In this document: one piece after another, positions 4,052-10,395 of the stretch | Layout of the letters: each line of letters starts with the position of its first letter | How positions within the stretch are numbered: position 1 is the stretch's first letter | DNA from: Anaerolineae bacterium | GTDB lineage: Bacteria; Chloroflexota; Anaerolineae; Caldilineales; Caldilineaceae | Direction of reading: 5' to 3' | Assembly (NCBI GenBank): GCA_030432295.1 | Contig: JAUIHI010000004.1 | Coordinates: 62,001 to 126,000 of the forward strand | DNA: 64,000 bases | Program-made: the position numbers and the translations under genes | The notes under the pieces: model-generated | Told to the model about the DNA's origin: nothing | The model's database searches: none | Seen by the model: the letters and a program-made list of their open reading frames with translations, nothing else

Positions 4052-4102
4052 GCATATCGATGGCCTGCTGGAGTCGCATTCCCATCGATATGCGACTCCA
4101 GC
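4052..4102. repeat. Two overlapping, mutually exclusive inverted repeats
   Basis: GCATATCGATGG at 4052-4063 pairs perfectly with CCATCGATATGC at 4082-4093. Independently, a 13-base arm starting GCTGGAGTCG at 4067-4079 pairs perfectly with 4090-4102. The second arms share bases 4090-4093, so both hairpins cannot form at full length together. The element lies between the convergent fba and selenoprotein genes, where a bidirectional terminator would be expected, but no T-run follows. Confidence 0.7.
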
Positions 4103-4198: not shown

Positions 4199-5152
4199 TC
4201 ACAGGGAAAACGTTCGTACTGTGCCTGCTTCGCTTGCCGTTTCCAGCAGATCCAACGCTGCCTCGAGAACCTGCCGCTGGCGGTCTCGGTCGCCAGGTCT
4301 ACCAAGCGGCCTGCCCATTCGGTGCGGCGTGATAAGCACCCGCGCTGCGTGCATCGCTTCCAGTCTCGCTTGAAATGCCTTCACCGCGATAATGACAGTG
4401 GGGATACCGGCTTCTTCCAACAGGCGGGCGACGTGTCCCACGGACACGTGGCAAACCGGTCAGACCGGCACAAGCAAGACGGCGTCAACGGCCTGTGCCT
4501 GGATCATCTCAATCCATTGGGGGGCCGTGCGTTTGATCAGCGGCGTTTGAGCGCAGGCACCCACGAAGGAATAGGCCGTTTCTGCCAATTCACCGATCCT
4601 GCCTTCGTCAACCAACGCGCGCAGATGCTCAAGCGGAAAGGCCACATTCGGATCGGTCAGCGCTGCACAGATGTCGTAGCCGCCATGGCGAACGCGCAGT
4701 TGATGGGTAGGCGTATCTACAGGAATTGCAGAGAGTTGCGGTTCTTCACGCAAAAAATCATTGATGCGTTCGATGGCTTCGGCTTGGCTCATATTCTCCA
4801 TGCCGAGTGGTTTGGGGTCGTTCCCCGCTACAAAGTGCCCACTCGACGTCAACAACATCAACCTGGCTGCGGAGATCGGTTTGCCTATCGGCGTGAATGG
4901 GCCATCGTCATAGGTCCACCCCTTTACGCCCGCATAGCCGCGCACCTGCCAGTCGAAGATGTGGTCGGCAACGGGGCCGTAGTCACTGCTGTCCGCGGCG
5001 TATCCCAGTTTCCACAGTAACTCTTGAAAGAACTGCGCCACCTCCTCGCTTGAAAATTTTGCCAAAAATTTGAAGTTCAGATCGGTTCGGCTACCGTAGT
5101 TCAACGAAGCGGCAAACTCTGTTAACATTTCCTCTTTTGTATCTGTAGACAT
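4199..5152 (-). CDS. GrdB/PrdB-like reductase, putative selenoprotein with in-frame UGA (317 aa)
   Basis: Related to the glycine/sarcosine/betaine/D-proline reductase selenoprotein B family, which reductively cleaves its substrate with a catalytic selenocysteine. Read through one TGA at 4460-4462 the product is 317 residues. The region reads AVLLVPV-(UGA)-PVCHVSVGHVARLLEEAG, placing the UGA exactly at the first position of the family's redox motif U-x-x-C. Sequence after the UGA continues in the same frame with clear family resemblance (EEAGIPTVIIAVKAF) to a TAA-type end at 4199. An 8-bp hairpin starts 10 bases after the UGA (separate entry). Start is ATG with AGGAG about 12 bases upstream. 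The Cys of the UxxC pair is kept. If read as a stop, translation would give a 230-residue protein cut at its active site, or a nonsense pseudogene. No selenocysteine-insertion genes lie in the window. Confidence 0.8.
4431..4449 (-). promoter_or_regulatory. SECIS-like hairpin just after the UGA codon
   Basis: On the coding strand, ACGTGTCC and GGACACGT form a perfect 8-bp stem closed by the loop GTG. The stem starts 10 bases after the UGA and the loop lies 18 bases after it. This fits the known geometry of bacterial SECIS elements: a stem-loop inside the reading frame, loop about 16-37 nt from the UGA, and a G among the first loop bases. The hairpin also encodes the conserved HVSVGHV peptide, so some pairing could be coincidental. 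Confidence 0.65.
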
Positions 5153-5218
5153 CGGTCATTCAACTCCTCTGCGAATGGTATGCTGGTTGACGAGATAATT
5201 CGATGATTGCAGAGAAAA

Positions 5219-9732: not shown

Positions 9733-10395
9733 TTACACCGTCGCACCCTCACGACCTTGCCCCTGCAACAACGACGCCAGCCCAGGCTCGTTCTGCACGT
9801 AGTAGCGGTAGGCGTTGTAGGTCAGGGGTTTCTCCATCTGGTTGTTGACGATTGTTCGCACCGCGGCCAGATTCAACCCCATCTGTAGATATTCCCGAAT
9901 CTGTTTCTTGTAGGGGTCCAGCGCCCGCTCCTTGTTACGGCTGCCTTTGGGTCGCCCTAGTTGCTTGCCCTGGGCTTTGGCTGCGGCCAGCCCCTGTTTT
10001 GTGCGCAGGGAGATATACTCCCGCTCGGATTCGGCGAAGTAGCTGTAGATGGCCAAGAGTAGTTTGGTGTGGGGACCGGTAGTGGAGAGTTCGGGCTGGC
10101 GCACAAAGATAATCTGTACGCCTTTCTCGCTCAACTCGCTGATGATGTTGAGGGTTTCCAGCATATTGCGGCCCAGCCGGCTCAGCTCGGCGGCCAGGAG
10201 GACATCCCCCTTCTGAAGGCGCGTCACCAACTCCTCGATGCGCCGCTCGCTTATGTTCTTGCGCGAGGAAATTTCCACCTCGATGAAGTCGGTGATAAGC
10301 AGTTTCTGCTGCTGGGCATATTCCAGCAGCAGGTGTTTCTGCTTGTCCAGGTCCTGCTTATCGGTGCTGACGCGGATGTAGCCGATTGTCTGCAT
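9733..10395 (-). CDS. Serine recombinase (resolvase/invertase family, 220 aa)
   Basis: Catalyses site-specific DNA recombination through a 5'-phosphoserine intermediate. The N-terminal catalytic domain shows IGYIRVSTDKQDLDKQK with the nucleophile Ser in RVST, ELSRLGRNMLETLNII, and AESEREYISLRTKQGLAAAK. The C-terminal part (QLGRPKGSRNK onward) is a DNA-binding tail. Length is that of small resolvases, not of large phage or transposon integrases. Start ATG with GAGGACGGT upstream. Upstream lies an AT-rich stretch and then a cluster of short direct repeats, which may be remains of a mobile element this enzyme belonged to. Confidence 0.9.
   Translation of the reverse strand: MQTIGYIRVSTDKQDLDKQKHLLLEYAQQQKLLITDFIEVEISSRKNISERRIEELVTRLQKGDVLLAAELSRLGRNMLETLNIISELSEKGVQIIFVRQPELSTTGPHTKLLLAIYSYFAESEREYISLRTKQGLAAAKAQGKQLGRPKGSRNKERALDPYKKQIREYLQMGLNLAAVRTIVNNQMEKPLTYNAYRYYVQNEPGLASLLQGQGREGATV

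Follow-up and report, generated by a model that had tools for sequence, protein, structure and literature searches.

A predicted GrdB/PrdB-like selenoprotein with an N-terminal extension in a genome of the Anaerolineae

Relation to described selenoenzymes and marine 'PrdB' proteins

In the known enzymes of the GrdB/PrdB type, the GrdE or PrdA partner protein is thought to bind the substrate through a carbonyl group, pyruvoyl or similar, and glycine reductase also requires GrdA (PMC10298544, PMC13188914). A non-canonical setting has been described for FarB, a GrdB-related selenoprotein of the monofluoroacetate operon of Cloacibacillus, with a proposed attack of selenocysteine (Sec) on the substrate; this operon carries a GrdE homologue, FarE (PMC10838667). 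In addition, marine metagenomes have since 2005 yielded UxxC selenoproteins under the name 'PrdB', with 42 genes for the Sargasso Sea (PMC1088965) and 235 Sec and 110 Cys proteins for the Global Ocean Sampling (PMC2398784).

The gene analysed here lies on the minus strand of a 64,000-nucleotide stretch of an Anaerolineae genome, which we call the window. The marine proteins are similar to the family of the window gene in that they belong to pfam07355, harbour a UxxC motif, are abundant and occur in Sec and Cys forms. The window gene very probably belongs to this loose group. The marine proteins were named by homology, and the parts of PMC1088965 and PMC2398784 that were accessible discuss neither missing partner proteins nor the N-terminally extended subfamily described below. 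We found no discussion of these two points in the portions of open-access text searched, and nothing on 'PrdB-like' proteins in the open-access literature.

The window protein passes the cut-off of the Pfam GRDB family (PF07355; 48.9 bits, cut-off 22). Its best curated match is the PrdB equivalog TIGR04483, with 96.4 bits over residues 142-314, below the cut-off of 300. The score for TIGR01918, selenoprotein B of glycine/sarcosine/betaine reductase, is just below the cut-off (64.1 bits, cut-off 65.45), GrdB matches with 63 bits, and the scores for the GrdB/GrdF/GrdH models TIGR01917, NF040795 and NF040794 are far below their cut-offs. On the basis of these profile matches, we assign the protein to the GrdB/PrdB superfamily. 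Of the original prediction, 'GrdB/PrdB-like reductase', the first part thus stands; the word reductase, if it is to mean a glycine or D-proline reductase, is not supported, as neither a pyruvoyl partner nor GrdA was found in the genome.

The protein resembles PrdB, the 26-kDa subunit of D-proline reductase, by the presence of Sec in a UxxC motif and by a similar domain length, but it has ~80 extra N-terminal residues, and its genome has no detected PrdA-family gene. As in GrdB, GrdF and GrdH, Sec lies at the matching end of the domain. In contrast, the match to GrdB starts near profile position 267 and covers just the C-terminal third, UxxC continues with HVS where the motif described for GrdB, UxxCxxC, has another xxC, and no GrdE or GrdA was found with the protein. 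Unlike the farB operon, the window gene has no GrdE homologue. The UGSC family matches weakly near Sec (19 bits), below the cut-offs of both models (19.3 versus 25 for Pfam PF24696 and 19.6 versus 125 for NCBIfam NF041046), and the motif of the window protein is UPVC, not UGSC. Sequence searches of the PDB yielded no credible relative, with weak profile matches to a designed dimer and an acyl-CoA dehydrogenase.

The gene and its in-frame UGA codon

The locus comprises the following features:

5164-5169, minus strand: Shine-Dalgarno-like GAGGAG, 11 nt upstream of the ATG (read from the sequence)
4199-5152, minus strand: complete predicted selenoprotein gene, 317 residues with Sec as residue 231 (full-length alignment with homologues)
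4913-5152, minus strand: N-terminal extension of ~80 residues (common to a 16-gene subfamily in the tree, missing from most relatives)
4460-4462, minus strand: in-frame UGA predicted to code for Sec, U231 in V-P-V-U-P-V-C (TGA versus Cys column in homologues)
4451-4453, minus strand: codon for C234, the Cys of the UxxC redox motif (no variation in a 26-row alignment)
4431-4449, minus strand: predicted SECIS hairpin, 8-bp stem and GUG loop (pairing, covariation, pairing lost in Cys homologues)
4202-4459, minus strand: 86 sense codons 3' of the UGA (purifying selection; invariant R243, E246, G249, R271, G280 and G284)

Translation of the frame from 5152 to 4199 on the minus strand gives an ATG start, 230 codons, the TGA at 4462-4460, 86 codons and a terminal TGA at 4201-4199. 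This agrees with the original prediction of one in-frame TGA in VPV-U-PVC; the 86 codons of family-like sequence described beyond it were likewise recovered, both by translation and in the alignment with homologues. Mechanical ORF calling breaks the gene at the UGA and yields ORFs of 230 and 82 residues, the first of which is devoid of the catalytic residue and of the remainder of the domain.

A contig scan with the single protein gave one relative only, and the other relatives come from searches of whole genomes, 396 from the class (matches in 60) and 400 from the phylum (matches in 95). The family is thus present in about 15% of the sampled class genomes and 24% of the phylum sample, mostly with the UGA. 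At the codon level, the Sec set combines 33 genes from the class search and the contig scan, one of them the window gene itself, with 29 from the phylum search. Of the homologues read, the 61 that retain a stop all have TGA in this very column, and the other 18, picked because they have no stop, have TGC or TGT (Cys); no third residue was seen there among these homologues. Every one of them runs on for at least 74 codons past the column. An alignment showing U or C at this site had been proposed as a check of the prediction, and homologues ending naturally at this position as the observation that would speak against it; none of those read does so.

An alignment of 26 sequences of both the Sec and Cys kinds has 14 invariant columns, including U/C231, C234 and six beyond the UGA. 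The Cys genes group into a single clade, with a support of 100/100, in a tree built from 79 sequences; one Sec/Cys change therefore suffices to explain these data. When the window gene is compared with ten relatives, dN differs little between the two sides of the UGA, and dS is close to saturation. For five closer pairs, dN/dS is 0.08-0.34 before and 0.10-0.27 after the UGA. Selection on the 86 codons that follow the UGA is about as strong as on those that precede it.

Recoding of UGA as Trp was considered and rejected: UGA ends the gene, and the relatives read that lack the in-frame UGA have Cys in its place and never Trp. One homologue (L035, G329:C393) lies in two frames, split around query residues 135-152, which points to a frameshift or an assembly error.

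The SECIS hairpin and the selenocysteine machinery

The hairpin has a 5' arm at 4449-4442 (ACGTGTCC), a GTG loop at 4441-4439 and a 3' arm at 4438-4431 (GGACACGT), giving eight perfect pairs; its RNA form is ACGUGUCC-GUG-GGACACGU. The stem starts 10 nt and the loop 18 nt after the UGA. A perfect 8-bp hairpin with a GTG loop 18 bases past the UGA had been predicted, and the analysis bears this out, the 18 bases being those to the loop, not to the stem. The published model of bacterial SECIS elements has a loop of 3-9 nt, a stem of 4-16 bp, a spacing of 16-37 nt, a G in the first two loop positions and an MFE <= -7.5 (PMC13188914). The window hairpin agrees with it on all four published criteria, with a GUG loop of 3 nt, 8 bp, a spacing of 18 nt and -20.6 kcal/mol, and so the predicted SECIS distance holds as well.

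Taken alone, the window hairpin is moderately unusual (z = -1.77 versus dinucleotide shuffles), and all eight pairs are kept in 3.3% of synonymous recodings of the same peptide. As the single-sequence hairpin is only mildly unusual, the case was decided on the relatives. In a gap-free alignment of the 33 Sec genes, the covariation score is 0.434 versus 0.164 in shuffles, with 0 of 500 reaching 0.434, and it is at most 0.08 when the strands are slid. The eight stem pairs hold in 92% of cells, 46 of the cells being doubly changed; examples of covarying stems are ACGUGUCC-GUG-GGACACGU, AUGUGUCC-GUG-GGACACAU, CAGUCC-GUN-GGACUG and CAAUCC-GUN-GGAUUG. The loop starts with GU in 33/33 of these genes. 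The mean number of pairs at the hairpin positions is 7.4 of 8 in 62 Sec genes, whereas it is 4.4 of 8 in the 18 Cys genes, with mean fold energies of -16.3 and -11.1 kcal/mol, respectively. The covariation, the difference in pairing between Sec and Cys genes and the strict TGA/Cys alternation together place the hairpin far beyond chance. In the Sec gene L040, the in-register hairpin is missing, and a shifted one seems to be present by eye.

The genome (6.72 Mb, 61 contigs, 100% complete by tool estimate) contains a tRNA-Sec gene (selC) with a TCA anticodon (66.9 bits, also called by ARAGORN) and matches to SelA (578 bits), SelB (311 bits, or 333 with the neighbouring stretch) and SelD (335 bits). 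All four genes for which a search had been proposed are hence present, including selC and selB, whose absence was to count against the prediction. The selD gene (L020, C47:64444-65436) has an in-frame TGA of its own at the usual Sec/Cys site (ACAG-U-ASK) and codes for a selenoprotein SelD.

Given the TGA/Cys column, the covariation of the hairpin, the selection and the machinery, the gene at 4199-5152 is very likely to code for a selenoprotein, with the UGA at 4462-4460 read as Sec; translation through this codon, as originally inferred, is supported at the sequence level. The hairpin 3' of the UGA would recruit SelB with Sec-tRNA-Sec, leading the ribosome to read the UGA as Sec, and the terminal UGA at 4201-4199 would work as an ordinary stop. 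That the in-frame UGA is a true stop, in a pseudogene or a gene for a naturally short 230-residue protein followed by a frame open by chance, is extremely improbable. UGA does serve as an ordinary stop elsewhere in the genome, including at the end of this gene, but it is hard to reconcile a stop with 61 homologues that have exactly TGA here and continue in frame with invariant residues, with purifying selection that persists beyond it, or with full Sec machinery in the genome. We consider this alternative already refuted by the comparative evidence.

Missing partners and possible function

In the tree, the ~80-residue extension corresponds to a branch of 16 genes, including the close relatives of the window gene. 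The genome harbours two further paralogues with TGA, on other contigs. One of them (L054/L059, C45:181001-181915) is 60% identical to the window gene and has the same UGA. With read-through of a second TGA as well, its frame would be open over 822 codons; this second TGA is probably just the stop that lies in front of the gene. The window copy clusters with genes of other families, apart from the copy that its own genus typically has, and the other genus members found with a long copy carry the C45 type (L027, L028, L030, L032 and L054 were compared). This suggests that the window copy is a second paralogue, acquired by transfer or resulting from an old duplication.

The pyruvoyl-forming GrdE/PrdA family (PF09338) was not found in the genome, nor in any of the 60 carrier genomes of the class. 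The same search yielded matches in three non-carrier genomes of the class, which indicates that it works. GrdA (PF04723) was found in two of the 23 genomes searched (G171 and G632), but neither in this genome nor in the 20 others. In principle, the absence of partners may reflect gaps in the 61-contig assembly, although the same absence is seen in many relatives. We looked for a conserved operon or neighbourhood among the relatives and found none, their neighbours varying from glycoside hydrolases and kinases to an iron-dependent repressor and an ABC transporter.

The neighbours in the window are one aldolase-like and two sensor-kinase-like genes, names that come solely from reading the translations. 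The stretch that separates the end of the selenoprotein gene from the aldolase-like gene has two perfect inverted repeats, pairing 4052-4063 with 4082-4093 (12 nt) and 4067-4079 with 4090-4102 (13 nt). They overlap in bases and are hence mutually exclusive, like a candidate terminator or switch-like element. A resolvase-like ORF is found at 9733-10395. Rfam and tRNA gene searches of the window gave no match.

As PF09338 and GrdA were not found and the neighbours vary, we take the protein as stand-alone, and it somewhat more probably than otherwise has an enzymatic role of its own on a small substrate. The broader proposal, for which we see even chances, is that the N-terminally extended GrdB/PrdB-like subfamily acts alone, with neither a pyruvoyl partner nor GrdA, and represents GrdB-type Sec chemistry outside amino-acid Stickland fermentation. 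There could also be a partner protein unrelated to GrdE/PrdA or GrdA. The selenolate of Sec231, in the UxxC motif at the N-terminal end of a helix, would attack or reduce a small organic substrate, Cys234 would close a selenenylsulfide with Sec231, and thioredoxin-like dithiols would reopen it. If the protein works with neither a pyruvoyl (GrdE/PrdA) nor a GrdA partner, the activation of the substrate must differ from that in glycine and D-proline reductase. A structure model predicted from two sequences is poor (mean pLDDT of 49); in it, U231 follows a strand (225-229) and precedes a helix (232-247), with a local pLDDT of 61-77. The predicted location of Sec at a helix start suits a redox motif and proves little.

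Two other functions were weighed against such a stand-alone enzyme. The best curated matches, to PrdB (96 bits), the selenoprotein B family (64) and GrdB (63), speak for a true subunit of a reductase complex for glycine/sarcosine/betaine or D-proline. We nevertheless regard such a subunit as very unlikely, given scores under the cut-offs of all five TIGR and NF models, no GrdE/PrdA-family gene in the genome or the 60 class carriers with a search that is positive elsewhere, no GrdA where two other genomes yielded it, and no conserved operon. A general selenol thiol-disulfide reductase or a peroxidase-like protective protein is rather doubtful. The UxxC motif at the predicted helix start and the occurrence of several paralogues per genome with differing neighbours would suit it, but the 14 invariant residues are spread over the whole domain and not just near UxxC, suggesting a substrate pocket, and the protein is homologous to selenoenzymes that cleave their substrates rather than to thioredoxin-fold proteins.

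Uncharacterised UxxC selenoproteins of the PrdB type were thus known, and the gene at 4199-5152 is a well-supported further example. As mechanical ORF calling breaks the gene in two and most members of the family carry the UGA, its annotation is probably wrong in many genomes. The naturally occurring clades, Sec with SECIS and Cys without, lend themselves well to comparison. Finally, the missing partners raise the question of a GrdB-type Sec chemistry that would proceed without a pyruvoyl group to activate the substrate.
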